From IMG/VR virus record IMGVR_UViG_3300034375_005370, positions 1-42,233 of that record: a DNA stretch of 42,233 bases. One strand, 5' to 3'. Under the pieces are notes generated by a model, which saw nothing but the letters and a program-made list of their open reading frames with translations, was not told where the DNA came from and did no database searches. Made by a program: the position numbers and the translations under genes. Each line of letters starts with the position of its first letter. Position 1 is the first letter of the stretch. Below, in pieces: positions 6,456 to 27,330 of the stretch. The DNA comes from a virus.

Positions 6456-6677
6456 CTAACTATTTTGGATGTCCTTGACGTTATCAATCAGAGAATCATA
6501 CGCTGCAATCATCCCTGACGTGGTAAAGTGTAAGTTTGTGTCTTTTATGACAGCAGGTGTCTGTAGATTCTTTAATGCATCCTCTCTTAATAGGGCTACA
6601 TACTCTAAAAAGTTTCTGAAGTGGTCAGAATCCTTTAACACCTTGATTGATACTTGAATTTCTTCTTCTTTTGCCAT
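6456..6677 (-). CDS. hypothetical protein (73 aa) between portal and scaffold
   Basis: No family recognised. It is a small soluble helical protein beginning MAKEEEIQVSIKVLKDSDHF, with a leucine-rich middle. It follows the portal stop by 9 nt, so it is in the same transcript. Its ATG has only a weak A/G-rich ribosome site (GAAAGAAAAA). A minor assembly role is possible but not shown. Confidence 0.7.
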   Translation of the reverse strand: MAKEEEIQVSIKVLKDSDHFRNFLEYVALLREDALKNLQTPAVIKDTNLHFTTSGMIAAYDSLIDNVKDIQNS

Positions 6678-6686
6678 TTTTTCTTT

Positions 6687-8813
6687 CTATGATGCTGCTC
6701 CGAATCCACCAGATGGTCCACCTAATCTACCAATAACAGCGTTTTGTTTTTGTTGAACTTGAAATTGTCTCTTCTTCATGTAGTCCTCGAATCGTGCTGC
6801 AAATGCCTCATCCTCTTGGAGTGCTTCCTGAATATCAGGTTGTTGTGCCCACTGCATTGCAATCTGCATCTTAACCTCGTGAGCATCATTTTCTTTGACA
6901 TCCAATGGGAAGCCGTTTTTAACCTCAGTTAGTGCTCTACGCTCTTCCTCATACATTTTCTGAGATGCTGTAGATTGTGGTAAGATTAACTCATCCCAAC
7001 CTGGCCATAAGTGACCTACCGCCTTTTTGAGCAGCGACTCCGTATCCAACACCCCATTCTTATCAAGCGTGGAACCGAGTTGTGCAGTGGCTGTAGCTTT
7101 TTCGATAACATTTGACGGGTCTTGATTACTCGCATCGAAACTGAAGTAGAAGTCGTATCTATTTGATGCCTCTCCTTTTTGGAATCTTTGAATTTCATTT
7201 ACACCTATTACCCTGAAGTATTCTTCGTCAGGTCCATATTGTTGATACAAGCTCCATATTTGGTCAAGTGCCTGACTCAAGTGACTAAAAACTCTATTCA
7301 TAAGAGCTTGCTGTTTGTTTGAAATCTCTACAGGGTCAGAATCATCATCAGCGAATCCAAAATACTTATTGAATTGTCGCTTGATTTCTTCGCGCATCTC
7401 AAGAGTTCCTTGATCGAAGTTTGGAATGTCTGCAAATGAGTATTCACCAGGTGATCTTACACCTAGCCAAACACCAGGACCCCAAGCTTTGGGAGGTCTG
7501 CCAATTGGATGCTGTAATGGAGGAAGAGTGGCGAGAGAATTGCGGTCGATTTGGGAGTCAATCTCTACTTTTAATTGGTGCTGTAATGATCTCCCTACTT
7601 CTGCGTAAGATCTCGTTTCATACAGCCTTTTAGACCATTCTTCTAACTTAGTGACTACAATCGGGTAGCGTCCATGAGCGTAGTCAAGAAGTTGGTGTTT
7701 TGCCCATGTTTGTTCCAGTTGACCTGCGTGACCTGCGTTATCCCCGTGAACTTGAGGATGAAAGACTGTGCAGTAGATACCAGGAATACCATCTTCATCG
7801 TGTAGCTTTTGATAGCAATAGATGACTCTGATTGTCTGGTCGTCATATAGGTTAAATTCTATGTTTCTCTCGCGGTGGGTCATTCTGCTATAATCTATAT
7901 CAGCCTCATTGTGAGTAGCCTGTAGATTATTAATTGCATACTCTACCCAATCTTCATTCCACCCATCATCTCTAACCTTTGCTCTAAGCTCTTGAGGGCT
8001 ATGATATGATGCCACAAAGAAATAAGGTGCATCTTGTGGGTCGATTGTCCATGCAGGAAAGAAAACGTCCTCATCTGGTGCAAGTGCCTTAATAGCGGGT
8101 CGATTGACTGTCTGTGTGGGTATTCCAAGGCTAGATTGACCAGTTTCTCTTAGTTCAGTGATGAATTTCTTGGCTTTTTTCTTACTAACCTCTAGTGCTT
8201 CCGATAGTCGAGATGTGAGTTCTTTGTCAAACTCTTCTGAGATAATTGATTGTGCAAGTTCAGGGTCTTGTTGCGCTAAATCTTCCAAGGTAAATGTCTG
8301 TAGAGTGCGCTCTTCCTTCTGCTCCCAATACTGAAAAGTGACCATTAATCCCTTCTCTAGCAGGTGATTGCAAGCCACTTCCATTTCGCGTTTAAACTCT
8401 TTGATCTTCGTGTTGAGCATCCACTTCATAAAATTGGATACTACTGCTGATCTCTCTATGTCATCGTCCTCTACAGGAGTTGCCATGAAATCAGCCTTAT
8501 TAATTGAGTTCATTAGCATATCAACGTGAGTTCTAATCGCGTTGTCTACTAGCCATACATCCTGATCTGAAGCACCATCCCAAGGAAAAGGCTTCTGTGT
8601 TGTGGTTGCTCGAGCGTGTTTGCGGTTGTCTCTCGATTTACCAGGCCAAATATTAAATCTAGTATCAAAGCCGTTCTGCTGTGCTTCTAGGAAATCAGTC
8701 AACTGTGACCGAGTTTCCTCATACGCAGCAGCTAATTGTGATATATCTGGTGTGTCCTGAAGAAACTGAAGAGCATCCTCTTTTGGGTCTGTTTTTTGTT
8801 GATGAAATGCCAT
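6687..8813 (-). CDS. portal protein
   Basis: This 708-residue protein is the head-tail connector. Its length is close to that of the P22-type portal (about 725) and longer than T7 gp8 (about 536). Features include an N-terminal helical arm, GKSRDNRKHARATTTQKPFPWDGASDQD near residues 60-85 (typical portal 'pfPWdGa' region), a long wing domain, and a C-terminal barrel-like Gln-rich helix (FEDYMKKRQFQVQQKQNAV). The ring of 12 subunits sits at one capsid vertex, docks the terminase and conducts DNA. It follows terL, the usual order. The ATG has no Shine-Dalgarno but lies in an ATTATGGCA context shared with other late genes. Confidence 0.9.
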   Translation of the reverse strand: MAFHQQKTDPKEDALQFLQDTPDISQLAAAYEETRSQLTDFLEAQQNGFDTRFNIWPGKSRDNRKHARATTTQKPFPWDGASDQDVWLVDNAIRTHVDMLMNSINKADFMATPVEDDDIERSAVVSNFMKWMLNTKIKEFKREMEVACNHLLEKGLMVTFQYWEQKEERTLQTFTLEDLAQQDPELAQSIISEEFDKELTSRLSEALEVSKKKAKKFITELRETGQSSLGIPTQTVNRPAIKALAPDEDVFFPAWTIDPQDAPYFFVASYHSPQELRAKVRDDGWNEDWVEYAINNLQATHNEADIDYSRMTHRERNIEFNLYDDQTIRVIYCYQKLHDEDGIPGIYCTVFHPQVHGDNAGHAGQLEQTWAKHQLLDYAHGRYPIVVTKLEEWSKRLYETRSYAEVGRSLQHQLKVEIDSQIDRNSLATLPPLQHPIGRPPKAWGPGVWLGVRSPGEYSFADIPNFDQGTLEMREEIKRQFNKYFGFADDDSDPVEISNKQQALMNRVFSHLSQALDQIWSLYQQYGPDEEYFRVIGVNEIQRFQKGEASNRYDFYFSFDASNQDPSNVIEKATATAQLGSTLDKNGVLDTESLLKKAVGHLWPGWDELILPQSTASQKMYEEERRALTEVKNGFPLDVKENDAHEVKMQIAMQWAQQPDIQEALQEDEAFAARFEDYMKKRQFQVQQKQNAVIGRLGGPSGGFGAAS

Positions 8814-8851
8814 AATAAAGAAATAACTACCTTTTTTTCACTAATAAGAAC

Positions 8852-8881
8852 ATAATGTATTCACTTTTTTTCATTTGTCAA
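8852..8881 (-). promoter_or_regulatory. candidate promoter between terL and portal
   Basis: TTGACA at 8881-8876 (minus strand) is followed after 18 bases by CATTAT, or after 17 by ACATTA. The spacer shares AAAAAGTGAAT with the promoter at 2663-2695, which suggests a common phage promoter type. It sits in the 75-nt gap between terL and the portal gene. Confidence 0.55.
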
Positions 8882-8888
8882 ATCGGTG

Positions 8889-11570
8889 TTAATATCCACC
8901 CGCGCATTCCGTTCCCACGCTGTAATTGCTGCCTATATAGATAGGATCGGATACGCACAAATATCTCACGCAGTCAACAGGATCTTTGTAAGCTTCCTCT
9001 CGAGACACTCCCATATACTCCAACATTGCTGTAATTGTGTTTTCGCAACGATCAGAGACATATAATCTAGGTCTATTTTCGTCAGAGAGAGGTTTGTTAC
9101 TATCCCATGCTAGATAATCATTAATTTTCCCTATGCCCTGATCCTCGTCATCGGCAGGTGCGGGTTTAAAGTAGAAGCCTAAATCACCCATCTCTTGAAT
9201 GATATTAGTCTCTCCTGAAGCAGCCTGTTGCGTGTATTTGCCCATTCTAGGGTCAATGATGCGCTCAAATATCTCTGCTTTTCCTTCAATGTCTATGATG
9301 GTCTGTTTATATTCCTCATATCCATAACCTAGAGGTCTTTGACCGCCTCCCGCTTTTCCGATAGGTTTACCTGCTGCATTTGTCCAAGGCAATGCCCATT
9401 CGCCCATCGTGATGTCAGGAAACTCAGCATATATATAAATGTCCTCCCGATAGTCCACAGCAGCCCATAGCATAAACCAAGGCTTAGAACCCGCAGGATC
9501 GCATATATGGTATCTAGTAACTTTATGGTCTGGATCTTTAACAAAAGGTAAATCATCGTGGGGAATTACATTAACGTGCCTATTAAAGCGAGGTAGCCTG
9601 TTGTGGAAGGCTTTAGAAGGGACTCCATGAAGACGAGCAAGCTTAATTTCTAGCGGTTGGCCTGAGAACTGCGCTTCTAGTGCGTCAGACTCCACAAATG
9701 GGTTGTCTCTAGTCCACCAATAGTAGACATTCATGTTTGCGAACTTCTTTGATAGCTGCTTAACGGGCAGTTTCATGTTCACATAGTCAGAGTGCCTTTT
9801 TTCTACCGTTTTTGCACCATTAAGTATCTCAGAAACTAAATCTGTCCACCCCTGTAGCGTTGTAAACGTGAGTAGAAGCTTTCCTCTATAGTCAGTGAGC
9901 CTCGACAATAGCGTAATGACAAGGTCTTTAGGTGCTTCTTCGTCACACCAGATAAAATGAGCTTTAAAACCCTCTGCAACTTGTTTATCATGCTGATATT
10001 GCTTATAGTTGTTGAAATAGATATAAGACCCCTTTTTTCTGCCAGGATGTGGAGGTAAAATCAACTTATTGTCAGTAAACCCATTCTTTTGCGAATATTG
10101 AATGCTATGATTAGGACCCTTTTTTTTGGTCATATTCTTATACTTCTCAGGCAGCATAGCCCAAACCATAGCTTGTTGGTCTTGGATAGATCGTTCCTCA
10201 GATACATGAAAGCAGCGAATTTCGGCTTCAGGGATGTTTTCTAATAACCATACTACTAGTGCTGCTGAGAAAAACGATTTTCCTGAGTTGTGGTGAATGG
10301 CTCCCCCATGGTAATAATTGTGATATACTGGAACATTAAAATCCCATACGCTATCATTTCGGAGGTATTCGACCTTTTCTATCTTGACAGAATAGGTTTT
10401 TATGCTATTATCTCTAAAATATGGTAAGAAAACATAGAATAAACTATCCTGTGGAACAGATTCGCCAATGGATTGAGCAAGACGGCAAAACGCAAGCCTG
10501 GATTGCTCAAGAACTATCGAATACTGTTGACGATCGAATAACACCAAAGCTGATTTACAAAGTCTGTAAAAAGCATAACATAAATTGCCAAAGAACTGGC
10601 CCTCGTAGCGGTTCTGATCACCCAAAGTGGAAAGGAGGTCGCTGTCTAAATAAGAGTGGATATTGGGAAATATTTCTGCCAGATCACCCCATGGTTGTCC
10701 AGAGGAACAAAGCATTGAAGGAGAAACATAGGGGAGAGAAGAAATATATTCACCCAAATAACTACTACTTAGAGCATAGATACGTTGCAGAACAAAAATT
10801 AGGTCGTGTTCTTTCTCCCGAAGAAGTTGTTCATCATCGTGATGGAGATACTCAGAATAACCATCCAGACAATCTTGAAGTTTTTCCAAGCAATGGAGCA
10901 CACCTTGCTGCGACCCTAAAAGGGAAGTGTCCGAACTGGTCAGAGAACGGAAAGAAGAAGCTGAGGGCATTTCAGGATCTCCGAAGAATGAAAGCAAAAG
11001 CTCGTCACCACTTTTTAGATGTCCTACGCTACGGTATCCAACAGGAGTTAAAACTCGATGAGCCTTGGAGCAAGCAAAAGACATCTCGTTGGGCAGATGA
11101 ACACGATATATCTCTTGAGACTCCTTTTTATAAGGTTTCTCTGCTTTTGCTTGAACAAGCTTAACTCCATCCCAAGCTAATACATGAAAGTCAGTATCTA
11201 TCTCAGATATTGGCTTTTTTGCGTCAGCCACAGGATCATAGATCAATGACTCTGGCGCTAAACAACGATTTCCACCGAACACTGTAGCAGAAGTCCATTC
11301 TGACCAATCATTTAGAACTTTTTGCCAACAATGCAGGGTAAATGTCCACTCCAACGGATCTTGAGTTGCCCAATCTTCGTGGTTTTCGATGATGTCAGCC
11401 AATTTCTCTGCTCCCGCAGGATTTCTGGCTATGAGTGCTTCAGCCTGTTCTGTAGATAGGTTGCTTTTTAATATGCCCCTCTCTATCCTAAAGGTATCAG
11501 AATCCCAAGGAAAGCCAAATTCAGGCTGAACATCACTAGTATGTATCCTCTTGCTACTCGTTTTTGACAT
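8889..11570 (-). CDS. terL: terminase large subunit (TerL) precursor containing an intein
   Basis: The 893-residue frame gives a 567-residue TerL after removal of a 326-residue intein (residues 103-428). TerL is the ATP-driven DNA packaging motor and headful/end nuclease. The Walker A loop is split: FGGNR at residues 98-102 continues as SGKS after the intein. Walker B is seen in AHFIWCDEEAP. Nuclease acidic residues appear in YHICDPAG, RIIDPRMGK and DPVDCVRYL. Start ATG 11570 has AAGGA six bases upstream. The C-terminus ends GTECAGGY. It follows two small genes, the first a DNA-binding protein, and precedes the portal. Activity requires splicing, because the insertion breaks the ATP-binding loop. 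Confidence 0.93.
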   Translation of the reverse strand: MSKTSSKRIHTSDVQPEFGFPWDSDTFRIERGILKSNLSTEQAEALIARNPAGAEKLADIIENHEDWATQDPLEWTFTLHCWQKVLNDWSEWTSATVFGGNRCLAPESLIYDPVADAKKPISEIDTDFHVLAWDGVKLVQAKAEKPYKKESQEIYRVHLPNEMSFACSKAHRVLTPVGYRSVGHLKSGDELLLSFFGDPEMPSASSFRSLTSSDTSLLGSQQGVLHCLEKLQDCLDGYSEYLHHDDEQLLREKEHDLIFVLQRIYALSSSYLGEYISSLPYVSPSMLCSSGQPWGDLAEIFPNIHSYLDSDLLSTLGDQNRYEGQFFGNLCYAFYRLCKSALVLFDRQQYSIVLEQSRLAFCRLAQSIGESVPQDSLFYVFLPYFRDNSIKTYSVKIEKVEYLRNDSVWDFNVPVYHNYYHGGAIHHNSGKSFFSAALVVWLLENIPEAEIRCFHVSEERSIQDQQAMVWAMLPEKYKNMTKKKGPNHSIQYSQKNGFTDNKLILPPHPGRKKGSYIYFNNYKQYQHDKQVAEGFKAHFIWCDEEAPKDLVITLLSRLTDYRGKLLLTFTTLQGWTDLVSEILNGAKTVEKRHSDYVNMKLPVKQLSKKFANMNVYYWWTRDNPFVESDALEAQFSGQPLEIKLARLHGVPSKAFHNRLPRFNRHVNVIPHDDLPFVKDPDHKVTRYHICDPAGSKPWFMLWAAVDYREDIYIYAEFPDITMGEWALPWTNAAGKPIGKAGGGQRPLGYGYEEYKQTIIDIEGKAEIFERIIDPRMGKYTQQAASGETNIIQEMGDLGFYFKPAPADDEDQGIGKINDYLAWDSNKPLSDENRPRLYVSDRCENTITAMLEYMGVSREEAYKDPVDCVRYLCVSDPIYIGSNYSVGTECAGGY
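10384..10411 (+). promoter_or_regulatory. promoter of the antisense HNH gene, inside the intein coding region
   Basis: TTGACA (10384-10389), 16 bases, TATTAT (10406-10411) on the plus strand. The predicted start (about 10418) is only two or three bases before the HNH ATG at 10421, so the mRNA would be nearly leaderless. The promoter lies within codons for the intein's C-terminal splicing region on the other strand. Confidence 0.7.
10421..11164 (+). CDS. HNH homing endonuclease encoded antisense within the TerL intein
   Basis: This 247-residue protein has an N-terminal helix-turn-helix-like region (QTDGK-type segment, KTQAWIAQELSNT, residues 23-35) and HPKWKGG at 67-73. The HNH motif comprises LEHRYVAEQKLGR (117-129), EEVVHHRDGD (134-143), NN 146-147, NLEVF 151-155 and H161. 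Such enzymes cut DNA with a metal held by the His/Asn residues, and often mobilise introns or inteins. The gene lies wholly inside the intein, opposite to terL. Its C-terminal residues about 195-247 overlap intein residues 34-88, including block B. It has its own promoter. Homing of this intein is inferred. Confidence 0.9.
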   Translation: MVRKHRINYPVEQIRQWIEQDGKTQAWIAQELSNTVDDRITPKLIYKVCKKHNINCQRTGPRSGSDHPKWKGGRCLNKSGYWEIFLPDHPMVVQRNKALKEKHRGEKKYIHPNNYYLEHRYVAEQKLGRVLSPEEVVHHRDGDTQNNHPDNLEVFPSNGAHLAATLKGKCPNWSENGKKKLRAFQDLRRMKAKARHHFLDVLRYGIQQELKLDEPWSKQKTSRWADEHDISLETPFYKVSLLLLEQA

Positions 11571-16911: not shown

Positions 16912-17087
16912 TACACTGTTTTGTCAAGAAATTCTTCAATTTCTGCTGCAATTAAGGATGTTTCATCTACATACATTAGGCAGGAGGCCAGTATATATCT
17001 GGCTTCCTCGAATAATTCATCTTGATCTTCCAGTATTTGCTCTAATACTGCTACCTTATCTTCTATATTTTTAATTTCATTTTTCAT
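16911..17087 (-). CDS. small acidic helical protein (58 aa) after ribonucleotide reductase
   Basis: Start ATG 17087 overlaps the ribonucleotide reductase stop by four bases (ATGA); a non-ATG start further upstream would intrude into that gene. The protein is acidic and helical (MKNEIKNIEDKVAVLEQILE, then DQDELFEEARYI), probably a coiled coil. Function is unknown. Confidence 0.65.
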   Translation of the reverse strand: MKNEIKNIEDKVAVLEQILEDQDELFEEARYILASCLMYVDETSLIAAEIEEFLDKTV

Positions 17088-19063
17088 TTTACTGGACAAG
17101 CTCCACCTGCACATTCTGTTCCTGACACTTCGTGATGCCCATTAGCATCATCTAGGTCAATTTCTTTAAGTTTATTAACGTATTCATCGTATGTAGATTT
17201 GTCAACAACTTCTTGAGGTAAATATTTATACCCTAGATCAGCAGCAGTTTTTGTAGGATCTGCGCGAAACAAAAACGATACACCTATGTAATTATCCCAA
17301 TTGCGCTCTAGCCAGTCTATTATGGCAGGAACTTCAGATGGGTCATAGCTGATAGTCGAAGATACATTTTGATGACACCAGTTAGTTTGTAGCATTAGGT
17401 ATCTATCTAATTGTTCTACAGCAGTTTCTAAGTTAACTTCTTTGCCATTTACCACGTCAAATTCTACACCATCATTGCAAACTGGAAACGTAACTAACAT
17501 TGAGTCTGCATCTGTTGGATGAGGAAAAACATTGTATTCTGCATCCTGAAGGATTTTTACAACTGGGTCATGCTTAGAAAAGTTGACATTGTTAAAGATG
17601 TATTTGCCTAGTGGTTTGTGCATCCCTTCGGTGGTATCATAGATTTTACTCATTGTTCCAGAAGGTTTTACAGTAGTAACATTCTTCGGTCTAGGTAGAT
17701 TCATCTCATCTGCCATACCATAGGCTGCTGAAGTAGCGATTCTTTCCAGTGATCTATAGTCGTATGCGTCTAAATCAGGTCTTTTAGCGATTCCTGTGAT
17801 ACCAACTCCGCAAAGGTGTAAGAACTCGTTGTTTTGATGCCAAGTATCCTGTAATATCCCATCTCTGAGGTCTACACAAGTTTGTCTGTAGTTTGCCCTT
17901 GAGATTAGTCTTGTTGCTTCCATGAGTCCAGAGTGATCGCCCTTGAATTTGGCTAGATCAATCTCAGATAGGTTACAAAAGCTTTTGTTGCCCAGTAGGA
18001 TTTCAACACAAGGATTACAGCCTTTAAACCAAGGTGCTTTTTTGAGTGCAGCTTCACCGTTGATAAACCCTGGTTCTGATCCACCTGCTTTGACCATAAG
18101 ATCAAAGATGTTTTCCATTTCTTCGCGCGTTGGCTTGCTATGGAAGAGTAGGGAATTGTTGCTTTGACATCTGTGCTCGTTGTCATACAACCACCAATCT
18201 TTCTTTGCTACCGCAAAATCCATCCATTCGGGTTCACTATAATCAAATAAGGCTATTTCAGCACTTCTACGGCTGCTTAAAACCGTTCCGAGATGATTTA
18301 CTACATCTAGTATATCCATCTTCTTTAAAAGGTTTCCTGAACGTTGTGAGAGGATCTGAGCTATTCTAGTATAAGCCTTTGAAATTGCTTCTGTTCCGCT
18401 AGAAATCCACCCATAACCTTTAAGTCTATCACCCGCAGGTCTAATCTCACTAAAGTCAAGCACAATTCTTTCAGCAGGATATTTCATTGCGAGAAGTTTG
18501 CCTACAGACTTAGCCCATGCTTCAGCACTATCGCCTATTTTTAATGTCCATGTTTCGCTCTCAGCATCCCAAAATTCCTCGTTGTGTTCCTGACCGCCCT
18601 TAGTTAATCTGCTCGATTCTACTACAACTATGTCTGATACAGGCTTGGTAAAACCAGTGAGAGTGCCTGTTACTGGCTTAAAACCTACTCCGCAACCCTG
18701 TAACAGCAGCCATAAGATGTCTACGCAATCATTGACAGTTTCAGCATAGGTGAATGAGCAGTTAAACATGGAACTTTCCCTGCGTCTACTAATTTCTGTG
18801 CCACCTAACCATAAAGTGCGACCTGCTACTGCAACCTTTCTGCTGAGAAGTAGTTGTTTAAGCTCAAATAGTTCAATTGACTCATCATCTGTCAATTCTC
18901 TATCTATCGCTCTTTCCCATAGCCATTTCTGGTGTTCAATTACACGATCAATGGTTTCGTGCCATGTTTCAAAGACAGTTCCTTCATCATTGAGAGGTCT
19001 ATTGTAAGTTCTTCTAGTTATTACTTTTGCTCTAGTGCTTGGATTGTTAACTATTGATTCCAT
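17084..19063 (-). CDS. nrdJ: class II (adenosylcobalamin-dependent) ribonucleotide reductase
   Basis: This 659-residue enzyme reduces ribonucleotides to deoxyribonucleotides for phage DNA synthesis. The catalytic set Asn350, Cys352, Glu354 (NPCVE) and Cys363 keeps the spacing of the monomeric Lactobacillus leichmannii-type enzyme. Cys102 (FNCSF) is the partner redox Cys, and the tail pair Cys651/Cys656 (CAGGACPVK) would re-reduce the site. The N-terminal RTYNRPLNDEGTVFETW is typical. No nrdA/nrdB pair or glycyl-radical activator is present, which fits the oxygen-independent B12 class. The gene starts inside the end of the 71-residue gene and is coupled to the next. Confidence 0.93.
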   Translation of the reverse strand: MESIVNNPSTRAKVITRRTYNRPLNDEGTVFETWHETIDRVIEHQKWLWERAIDRELTDDESIELFELKQLLLSRKVAVAGRTLWLGGTEISRRRESSMFNCSFTYAETVNDCVDILWLLLQGCGVGFKPVTGTLTGFTKPVSDIVVVESSRLTKGGQEHNEEFWDAESETWTLKIGDSAEAWAKSVGKLLAMKYPAERIVLDFSEIRPAGDRLKGYGWISSGTEAISKAYTRIAQILSQRSGNLLKKMDILDVVNHLGTVLSSRRSAEIALFDYSEPEWMDFAVAKKDWWLYDNEHRCQSNNSLLFHSKPTREEMENIFDLMVKAGGSEPGFINGEAALKKAPWFKGCNPCVEILLGNKSFCNLSEIDLAKFKGDHSGLMEATRLISRANYRQTCVDLRDGILQDTWHQNNEFLHLCGVGITGIAKRPDLDAYDYRSLERIATSAAYGMADEMNLPRPKNVTTVKPSGTMSKIYDTTEGMHKPLGKYIFNNVNFSKHDPVVKILQDAEYNVFPHPTDADSMLVTFPVCNDGVEFDVVNGKEVNLETAVEQLDRYLMLQTNWCHQNVSSTISYDPSEVPAIIDWLERNWDNYIGVSFLFRADPTKTAADLGYKYLPQEVVDKSTYDEYVNKLKEIDLDDANGHHEVSGTECAGGACPVK

Positions 19064-25478: not shown

Positions 25479-26056
25479 AGAAGTCATTTATATTATATCA
25501 CGATGCCTGTGAAAACATTTTTGATTTATCAAATGAAGATGCAGGAATAGTTTTTAAAGATATTATTTTTCACAGCTTTGAAAAGAATAATCATAACCCA
25601 AAGAAAGCGAAAAAACCCAATGGGTTAAATGGGTTATTGAGTATAGTCTCGACATTCTATAAAGACCAAATAGACAGGGACTTAGAGAATTATAATAAGA
25701 TTGTAGAAGTCAATAAAAACAATGGAAAAAAGGGAGGCAGACCAAAGAAGAAAAACCCAATAAAAGCGAAAAAAGCCGATAAGGATAAGGATAAGGATAA
25801 GGATAAGGATAAAGAAAAAGAAATATATAATATTTATCCACGAAAGATAGGTGGAGCTAAAGCAATTGAATCAATCACAAAAGCTCTAACCAAAATCTCA
25901 TACGAAGAACTCAGAGAAAAAGTAAAAACGTATGCAGAACAATCAAAGGAAACTGAACCTCAGTTTATTCCTCATCCTTCAACTTGGTTCAATCAAGAAA
26001 GATGGTTAGATGTTCAGCAGATAAAAAACAATAAAGTATTCTTGAATTTGATATGA
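25475..26056 (+). CDS. replication initiation protein (DUF6291-like)
   Basis: The 193-residue protein begins KKSFILYHDACENIFDLSNE and has GVFKDIIFHSF-type and YKDQIDRDLENY segments, as in DUF6291 proteins of phage replication modules. A low-complexity Lys/Asp linker follows (residues about 100-118). The C-terminal part contains YPRKIGGAKAIESITKALTK and IPHPSTWFNQERW, the end typical of helicase-loading or initiator proteins. It is coupled to dnaB by an ATGA overlap, so it probably opens the origin or loads the helicase. Confidence 0.7.
   Translation: MKKSFILYHDACENIFDLSNEDAGIVFKDIIFHSFEKNNHNPKKAKKPNGLNGLLSIVSTFYKDQIDRDLENYNKIVEVNKNNGKKGGRPKKKNPIKAKKADKDKDKDKDKDKEKEIYNIYPRKIGGAKAIESITKALTKISYEELREKVKTYAEQSKETEPQFIPHPSTWFNQERWLDVQQIKNNKVFLNLI
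25778..25813 (+). repeat. hexanucleotide microsatellite in the initiator gene
   Basis: GATAAG five times followed by GATAAA, in frame, encoding Asp-Lys repeats in the linker. A change in copy number would keep the frame but alter linker length. Confidence 0.85.
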
Positions 26057-27330
26057 GCAAAAAAATTGAACAGGGAATCTTAGCTTGCATTCTCAAAGAT
26101 GGTGAATCAATCGTTGATGTAGTCAGCGAAGGAATTAAGCCTAAGTCTTTTGAAGATCCACAATGCTCTAAGCTTTTCGAGGATATGCTAAAAGTCTACT
26201 CAAATGGTGAAAATCCAGATTATGTAGAGATGTGTATGCAAGAGAACGCTGATATAAGCCTTCTAGGATACCTAGACGAGCTTGTAGACACATCAGCTAT
26301 GCTTGGGTCTTATTTGAAAAAGAAAAAGGCTTCTATGGCTAAATATGAGCTTTTAAGGAAATTAAAGGAAATATGGGAATTAGTTAAAAATGATACCTGT
26401 GATTCTGAAAAAGCAATCGGATTAATGTGTGAGTTAAATAAAAACTCAAAAAACGAGAAAAACATCACTGTCAAAAAAGAAGTAGAAAAGCTAAAAAAGA
26501 TAGCCATAACTCCTGAAGATGAAAGAAGCGAATTAACGCGCACATTTACCTTTGGATTAAAAGGTGCAGATTTAAAACTAAGCAGAATACGAAAATCTGA
26601 GCTTGTTGTAGTTGGTGCTAGACCCTCCACTGGAAAAACATCGTTAGCGTGTCAAATCATGGATTCTAATGCCAAAGAGCAGAACAACATCCTATTCTTT
26701 AGCTTCGAAACAGATGCAGACGAATTGTCAGAAATAATCATGTTGCAAAGAACCAAGCAGAACCTAGATTGTATCACCCAGGATGGAACAGATTGGTGGG
26801 ATAGACAAACAGATGATTCGTTAGACAATATGCAGATTATATCAAAACCCTGCACAGTTGAAGAAATCGTTGGCAAGGTTAAAGCAAATCATGGAGCAGG
26901 AAAGTGTGATATGGTAATCATTGATTATCTTCAGCTTATAGTTCCATCGGACAATAAGCAGAGTAGAGAACAGCAGGTTGCTCACATATCCAGACAACTC
27001 AGGCTATTGACAATCGAATTGTGTGTTCCAGTTATAGCACTAGCACAACTAAATCGTGGCACAGAAAAAGAAGATAGACCGCCAAGGATGTCAGACCTCA
27101 GAGAATCAGGAGCTATTGAACAAGATGCCTCTAGGATAATTATGATACATAGACCCAAGGAGAAGTTTGACGGGTCAACTCAAGACCCTGAGCAGGGTTA
27201 TACGTCATTTGTATTTGACACAGCGTTACTACAGGTAAAGTGCAAAAAAGGACCAAAGGGAGTAGGTATTCCAACTAGATTTATGGCTCCTGAACAAAAG
27301 TTTTATGAAATATCTTCGATTTCTGTTTGA
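26053..27330 (+). CDS. dnaB: replicative DNA helicase DnaB
   Basis: The 425-residue enzyme has the N-terminal helical domain (residues 1-90), then the RecA-like core. Walker A is VVGARPSTGKTS (residues 186-197), Walker B MVIIDYLQLI (287-296), and SREQQVAHISRQLRLL and ALAQLNR with RPPRMSDLRESGAIEQDA correspond to the conserved DnaB motifs. It unwinds DNA at the fork and, in phages without a polymerase gene, recruits host replication proteins. It is coupled to the upstream initiator gene (ATGA) and followed by small genes. Confidence 0.95.
   Translation: MSKKIEQGILACILKDGESIVDVVSEGIKPKSFEDPQCSKLFEDMLKVYSNGENPDYVEMCMQENADISLLGYLDELVDTSAMLGSYLKKKKASMAKYELLRKLKEIWELVKNDTCDSEKAIGLMCELNKNSKNEKNITVKKEVEKLKKIAITPEDERSELTRTFTFGLKGADLKLSRIRKSELVVVGARPSTGKTSLACQIMDSNAKEQNNILFFSFETDADELSEIIMLQRTKQNLDCITQDGTDWWDRQTDDSLDNMQIISKPCTVEEIVGKVKANHGAGKCDMVIIDYLQLIVPSDNKQSREQQVAHISRQLRLLTIELCVPVIALAQLNRGTEKEDRPPRMSDLRESGAIEQDASRIIMIHRPKEKFDGSTQDPEQGYTSFVFDTALLQVKCKKGPKGVGIPTRFMAPEQKFYEISSISV

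Follow-up and report, generated by a model that had tools for sequence, protein, structure and literature searches.

Probable antisense HNH homing endonuclease gene in a mobile viral terminase intein, partly overprinted on the splicing domain

Inteins are normally described with the endonuclease as an in-frame domain, and a split-intein fractured gene is one in which the host gene lies in separate open reading frames (ORFs) around a free-standing endonuclease. Intein endonuclease domains are reported to share one conserved insertion site (PMC6801210). No antisense endonuclease within an intein was found in searches of a collection of open-licence PMC papers; a bioRxiv manuscript on a non-canonical intein architecture in actinobacteriophages (10.1101/2025.01.02.630785) falls outside that scope and may report something similar. 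Here we describe an intein in the large terminase (TerL) of the IMG/VR virus record IMGVR_UViG_3300034375_005370, the whole 42,233 nt of which are called the window and supply the window positions used below. The opposite strand of this intein carries a complete HNH endonuclease gene that runs on into the DNA of the N-terminal splicing domain, and in relatives this shared DNA is under purifying selection in both frames. We regard the element, with good confidence, as a mobile terminase intein with an antisense HNH homing endonuclease gene and a partly overprinted tail.

Like the terminase inteins of mycobacteriophages, several of which splice and have active endonucleases, this intein lies in the ATPase domain of the large terminase; in contrast, no antisense HNH is described for those inteins in the available text of PMC5050341, from which the words "antisense" and "opposite" are absent. 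The antisense HNH gene occupies the same general place as the insertion site of PMC6801210, a likeness of position.

Organisation of the intein and its antisense gene

The whole HNH gene lies within the intein, antisense to intein residues 34-282. The features of the locus are as follows.

8889..11570, minus strand: TerL precursor ORF of 893 residues, split by the intein inside Walker A (GGNR/intein/SGKS)
10287..11264, minus strand: intein of 326 residues (CLAPES...HHN), with C1 at 11262-11264 and the last Asn at 10287-10289
11043..11081, minus strand: intein block B, SFACSKAHRVLTP, intein residues 62-74, with invariant His69 (H in 81/81 aligned loci)
10287..10352, minus strand: C-terminal splicing blocks of the intein, SVWDFNVPVYHNYYHGGAIHHN, with D308, V311, Y317 and N326 invariant in 40/40
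10395..10991, minus strand: intein residues 92-290, for the most part the back of the HNH gene read in sense; open, low-confidence and linker-like
10421..11164, plus strand: antisense HNH endonuclease gene of 247 residues (HNH_3 at E 2.1e-10; model mean pLDDT 90.8)
10421..10573, plus strand: N-terminal part of the HNH protein, with three helices at residues 11-20, 25-35 and 42-51
10763..10915, plus strand: HNH catalytic core, residues 115-165, with H119, H139, N147, N151, N158 and H161 invariant in 42/42
11003..11164, plus strand: HNH tail, residues 195-247 and the stop codon, in DNA common with the N-terminal splicing domain (intein residues 34-88)
10384..10411, plus strand: candidate sigma-70-like promoter, TTGACA-16-TATTAT, ending 9 nt 5' of the HNH ATG

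An earlier note on this DNA had placed the HNH C-terminus and block B on common bases at 11003-11164, and its coordinates hold for the tail, for the intein residues opposite it and for block B: this stretch is the portion of the HNH gene, its last 53 codons, that overlaps the splicing domain. HNH codon position 1 stands opposite intein position 1, HNH 2 opposite intein 3 and HNH 3 opposite intein 2, so that nearly every synonymous site in one frame is a replacement site in the other.

Relatives were collected with a profile of five HNH proteins, and the best 80 of 488 viral-contig matches were kept together with 6 bacterial-contig matches; many of the 80 viral loci are near copies of each other. 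In 80/80 viral and 4/6 bacterial-contig loci, a single frame of 1.3-3.7 kb without stops runs antisense to the HNH match, and its register never varies; the exceptions are L102 and L103. With the window, L008 and three phage records added, the set comprised 89 loci; both Cys1 and the terminal Asn were identified in 82 of them, the 7 loci lacking a located Cys1 being left out. With L055 (N-terminal domain deleted) and L073 (C-terminal end misassigned) removed, clustering at 68% DNA identity grouped 80 loci into 33 clusters; the region tests further excluded 4 loci that lack the P.W anchor.

The terminase frame of the window is open from end to end over its 893 codons, which sets it apart from a split-intein fractured gene. 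Terminase_6N matches it slightly under the Pfam cut-off of 22 (21.1 bits, E 0.00026), and Intein_splicing matches the intein under its curated cut-off of 35.8 (28.4 bits, E 1.6e-06). The residues and the fold are nonetheless those of an intein: C1 and H69, with the four C-terminal residues listed above, are invariant in 40/40 aligned members, and the codon at +1 encodes Ser or Thr in 81/81. In an AlphaFold model built from a 40-row alignment, intein residues 1-91 and 291-326 have a pLDDT of about 97, and a Foldseek comparison with solved structures returned 24 matches at E <= 0.001, nearly all of them inteins (best 4.8e-07), in agreement with a Hint fold despite the low Pfam score. The window element, judged by residues and fold, is thus predicted to be an intein that excises itself and ligates its exteins. 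It is not a mini-intein, a form without endonuclease insert of about 130-170 residues: it has 326 residues and an antisense HNH, and the true mini-inteins of this family measure 130-132 residues.

On the other strand, HNH_3 scores over its Pfam cut-off in the window protein and is present in 40/40 aligned members. Helix-turn-helix families match the N-terminal part of several HNH relatives, with at most 7/40 for any one family. In the model, the three N-terminal helices and the HNH core are followed by a long helix (175-209) and two tail helices (218-227 and 236-246); the pLDDT is 88-94 over residues 191-230 and 59-65 beyond. H139, N151 and H161, invariant in 42/42, we take to be the catalytic His, Asn and His of the HNH family.

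The HNH gene is probably transcribed from its own promoter just inside the part of the gene encoding the C-terminal end of the intein. The candidate found there has 11/12 consensus matches and a TG before the -10 box, and 0/22 background windows score as well; the number of promoter-like sites in the region shows no excess (2, against a shuffle mean of 2.6). With only 9 nt between this candidate and the HNH ATG, the transcript would begin no more than a few bases from the start codon and be almost leaderless. Similar sites end 6-9 nt before the HNH start in L021, L025, L043, L045 and L067, and several other members have, as read by eye, a Shine-Dalgarno-like stretch in place of a promoter-like site. 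In 23/38 representatives no more than 10% of background windows equal the candidate's score, and 3/38 lack any candidate; these figures do no more than suggest a promoter conserved among relatives.

Selection on the two frames

Constraint was measured in relatives, the close copies of the window being 99.8-100% identical. Substitutions were compared in 13 chosen pairs from five overlapped groups, not all of them disjoint, and the four-class counts (dNN/dSN for the intein frame, dNN/dNS for the HNH frame) come from 11 disjoint chosen pairs. At intein codon positions 1/2/3, the substitutions per site were 0.155/0.110/0.424 in the HNH-free N-terminal part of the intein, 0.229/0.224/0.266 in the overlap and 0.196/0.393/0.140 opposite the HNH core. 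In the core, HNH position 3 changes most (0.393) and HNH position 2 least (0.140), a pattern reversed in the HNH-free intein DNA; in the overlap the three positions are alike. The core evolves as HNH-coding DNA only, the N-terminal part as intein-coding DNA only, and the overlap as both.

A drop in synonymous change within the overlap, which the earlier note had set as the test of two-way coding, was found. Fourfold-degenerate sites of the intein frame had changed in 53/280 cases in the overlap, 69/145 in the HNH-free N-terminal part and 108/206 in the C-extein; in the clade with an HNH that stops short of block B, the count for the HNH-free N-terminal part was 66/154. The intein-synonymous rate was 0.182 per site in the overlap against 0.466-0.472 in the adjoining HNH-free intein DNA, a drop of about 2.5-fold. 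The four-class counts give constraint on both proteins encoded by the overlap, with dNN/dSN of 0.53 (0.43-0.68) for the intein and dNN/dNS of 0.63 (0.46-0.81) for the HNH; for relatives, the two-way coding proposed earlier is supported. The corresponding values in the HNH core are 0.84 and 0.23. The antisense dNN/dNS is 0.82-1.59 in five HNH-free regions of the same pairs and 1.35 over residues 34-83 of the clade with an unoverlapped 171-residue HNH.

In a further, independent test, tail length was compared with that obtained by synonymous recoding of the intein N-terminal domain in 1000 simulations, each of the 33 clusters being represented by its first member. The mean antisense tail is 44.8 codons against 24.2 expected, a value reached in 0/1000 simulations, and the tail exceeds expectation in 31/33 clusters. 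For the window cluster alone it is 56 codons against 22.9 expected (P 0.054). These results support purifying selection on the overlap in both frames, in relatives.

The sense insert that separates the two splicing halves behaves otherwise. It is mostly modelled at pLDDT 32-57, and the near-neutral dNN/dSN of 0.84 measured opposite the HNH cores of relatives compares with strong purifying selection on the sense frame in the HNH-free splicing parts (0.19-0.39). Opposite the core, the sense strand probably encodes an unconstrained, disordered linker of roughly 200 residues; a second functional domain and an in-frame endonuclease domain were both rejected on the same two observations. Opposite the HNH core, the intein frame is free of stops in all 38 representatives. 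Synonymous shuffling of the HNH codons puts a mean of 1.7-8.5 stops into it, with a probability of none between <0.0005 and 0.126; the two remaining antisense frames contain between 1 and 16 stops. The splicing frame thus exerts selection on the HNH gene's own codons.

Mobility and distribution

Occupancy of the insertion site was determined in one terminase family, from which 80 members were fetched and 75 classified; L117, L123, L131, L139 and L152, whose match starts past the insertion site, were left out. The site is empty in 68 terminases, occupied by intein and HNH in 6 and cut in 1. Compared pairwise, the six inteins (the L029 group) show 0-9 differences in 933 bases, and their C-exteins 42-260 in 1437. 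Between L112 and L115 the inteins are identical (0/933), the C-exteins differ at 150/1437, and identity stops 3 and 5 nt outside the intein; the C-extein of the empty allele L108 is 97.9% identical to that of the intein-bearing L107. Near-identical inteins in diverged terminases beside empty alleles are the footprint expected of homing and point to recent mobility. Presence/absence polymorphism and spread into diverged alleles were found for the intein and HNH unit of the L029 group, and not for the window's own copy. All six intein-bearing members of this group have TCC as the +1 codon and the 8 empty alleles compared have AGC or AGT; such a codon switch was rejected as a general mark of the mobile unit, AGC/AGT standing at +1 in 20/81 inteins and TCN in 16/68 empty alleles.

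The HNH_3 domain, the motif residues invariant in 42/42 and the purifying selection on its frame suggest that the antisense HNH is the enzyme that drives homing of the intein. The sense strand would make a Hint splicing domain with a linker kept free of stops, and the antisense strand a helix-turn-helix HNH endonuclease encoded between the two halves of that domain. By inference, terminase alleles that lack the intein would be cut by the endonuclease at the insertion site or close to it, and repair would copy the intein together with the HNH gene into the cut allele. The 3' end of the HNH gene would run on into the N-terminal splicing domain, and in most lineages the read-through tail may by now belong to the endonuclease as a constrained and probably folded part, so that block B would lie in dual-coding DNA.

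A separate exchange of the HNH part seems to have occurred in the L048 cluster (20 loci, 5 pairs compared), in which the N-terminal domain has diverged like the exteins (third position 0.433) and position 3 of the HNH core only at 0.120.

Insertion sites fall into three registers of one P-loop, GGNR/S (27), GK/T (8) and GxG/S (7) among 42 representatives. On the HNH tree the loci group by register, with 4 changes against a shuffled mean of 14.0. A Pfam scan of ten relatives placed six over a terminase cut-off (Terminase_3/6) and one, L094, over the intein cut-off. Matches occur in eight Pectobacterium/Dickeya phage records, Pseudoalteromonas phage PHS3, Enterobacter cloacae DSM 26481 and 1/5426 complete E. 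coli genomes; a DNA search among phage records with the window terminase gave no match. In the two Pectobacterium phage records examined, the terminase is a hypothetical protein and the HNH is unannotated, and in PHS3 the terminase is annotated only downstream of the HNH. In E. coli MEI003 (L263, NZ_CP071263.1 151257-153544), RefSeq gives the terminase as incomplete, with its N-terminus missing, and the antisense HNH as an ordinary gene.

Three further observations concern other genes. In L008, a separate HNH-like ORF at 8719-9444 (plus strand) directly follows a portal-like gene (6575-8722); the end of the ORF is a near copy of the C-terminus of the portal-like gene (GRLGAAMPGPM), as if the end of that gene had been rebuilt by an HNH insertion. 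Elsewhere in the window, a ribonucleotide reductase with a class II (B12-dependent) insertion domain is encoded at 17084-19063 on the minus strand, and a DnaB-like helicase at 26053-27330 on the plus strand, opposite to the terminase.

Alternative readings and described systems

The simplest competing account is that the antisense HNH merely runs on to the next available stop, the tail over block B being functionless and its conservation owed to the intein alone. Several results lean this way, against a functional overprinted tail. The tail ends anywhere from intein residue 7 to 83 and fails to reach block B in 21/81 loci; beginning at residue 191, its columns carry about 0.5-1.0 bits of conservation across the family, compared with about 2.6-3.3 in the core; and the non-intein HNH relatives among the matches listed do not cover it. 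The window lineage offers no relative at a useful distance for constraint tests. In the cluster of L022, L028 and L030 there is no drop at fourfold sites (9/50 vs 10/52), and plain third-position counts show no significant drop in that cluster (Fisher p 0.66), in L029/L020/L034 (p 0.90) or in L040/L042 (p 0.33). An HNH-free control, residues 1-33 of the 171-residue clade, also came out low in dNN/dNS, at 0.57 (0.37-0.93), and some noise in the measure has to be allowed for. Against the preferred reading as a whole, the best solved match of the HNH model is the homing endonuclease I-HmuI (Foldseek probability 0.97), at a non-significant E of 0.21, and a sequence search of solved structures with the HNH found no match. 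Passive read-through is nevertheless unlikely in our view, given the lowered intein-synonymous rate and the HNH-frame ratio in the overlap, the excess of tail length in nearly all clusters and the confident helices that the model extends to about HNH residue 230. Recent gene conversion could also have lowered divergence in the overlap. Conversion is common here, as the L029 group attests, and in the 171-residue clade divergence is lower in the HNH core than in the N-terminal domain. We hold a conversion tract in place of dual coding to be quite improbable, however: the lower intein-synonymous change of the overlap recurs at fourfold sites in 4/5 groups, and in L025, L026 and L027 the overlap is flanked by more diverged DNA, with 0.278 at the third position before it, 0.210 at HNH position 3 after it and 0.024 at both within.

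The earlier note had gone on to argue that the overlap locks the endonuclease to the intein, loss of the HNH end being lethal to the phage through its effect on splicing. The overlap covers the whole of block B in 54/81 loci and is selected in both frames, as such a lock would have it, and it ends inside block B in 6. HNH homologues that end early, which the earlier note had set against its own idea, do occur, since in the remaining 21 loci (2/33 clusters, among them the 171-residue HNHs) the gene stops before block B; an obligatory overlap was rejected on this count. In L055, at about 1497-2066, most of the N-terminal splicing domain including block B is gone and a 211-residue insert with an antisense HNH ORF is left; the locus may be a dead or split intein, or result from faulty assembly. 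Among 80 loci found through the C-terminal end of the intein, the antisense HNH is present in 73, and the other 7 are mini-inteins of 130-132 residues with intact splicing blocks. Among HNH-less forms, L245 and L246 share much of the N-terminal domain of the HNH-bearing L025 and L026, L246 diverging within block B and L245 only beyond the domain; L245 also retains the antisense tail frame with the same stop, without the HNH core. This likeness to HNH-bearing inteins, antisense tail included, favours loss of the HNH in L245 and L246 over its never having been there. L010, a mini-intein of 132 residues, sits at the same P-loop site as the HNH-bearing L008 in exteins 96.5% and 97.9% identical to those of L008, the two inteins having 51% protein identity; used as a search query, it matched only itself, and an N-terminal domain alignment used in the same way had no conserved stretch. 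As the HNH can be absent while the splicing blocks stay, the overlap constrains the end of the gene and does not tie the HNH gene to the intein; a deletion of the HNH start and core spares block B, and the overlap protects the gene's end only. A lock therefore appears highly improbable as the reason for which the overlap arose or persists. What is sound in the argument is covered by an existing idea (PMC2988022), that insertion at a critical site makes imprecise loss costly, and the position in the terminase P-loop does make imprecise loss of the whole element costly.

It is also conceivable that the terminase is simply broken by an HNH insertion, with no working intein, which is how annotation pipelines can read such loci, as with the incomplete MEI003 terminase beside its HNH gene. 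We give this hardly any credence in view of the sense frame open across all 38 cores, the invariant Cys1, block-B His and terminal Asn, the Hint fold, and the purifying selection on the sense frame in the HNH-free splicing parts.

A mobile intein with an antisense, partly overprinted endonuclease gene remains our preferred reading, and we lean, with some reserve, towards a broader one, in which such elements would form a widespread and old class of mobile inteins, with the antisense endonuclease gene in a fixed register and the DNA of the N-terminal splicing domain overprinted as a C-terminal, possibly DNA-binding, part of the nuclease. Such a class would probably have escaped notice because annotation often yields a terminase that is broken or lacks a name, with an ordinary HNH gene either next to it or missing; the arrangement accounts for the incomplete MEI003 terminase, the partial PHS3 terminase and the hypothetical protein without HNH of the Pectobacterium phages. 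As an independent antisense gene, the endonuclease can have its expression timed apart from that of the terminase, and two proteins evolve on the same bases. The family is also a natural experiment in antisense dual coding, with overlapped and unoverlapped clades, empty alleles and HNH-less forms at the same site.

Among described systems, the hidden HNH of ShiLan type in phage methylases (PMC11855218) resembles this locus in having an HNH in another frame, an insert open in the frame of the host gene, a phage setting and a homing pattern. It differs in that, in the available part of that source, no splicing domain was detected and there is no mention of an antisense or reverse strand, whereas here the HNH is antisense within a recognisable intein; an insertion of ShiLan type was rejected for the window, which has a splicing domain and its HNH on the opposite strand. 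I-DsqI of nuclear group I introns (PMC9548176) is likewise a homing endonuclease whose gene runs antisense to a self-splicing element, and it is expressed and active there; that element is an RNA intron in ribosomal DNA, its enzyme is a His-Cys endonuclease and its sense strand need not stay open. With inteins that carry an in-frame homing endonuclease, such as Mtu RecA and PI-PfuI, the present element shares the Hint fold, Cys1, the block-B His, the HN/(Ser or Thr) junction and mobility at the DNA level, as well as an endonuclease placed between the splicing halves, the general insertion place of such enzymes. Unlike in those inteins, the endonuclease is here a separate gene on the opposite strand, and the in-frame insert is an unconstrained linker instead of a folded domain.

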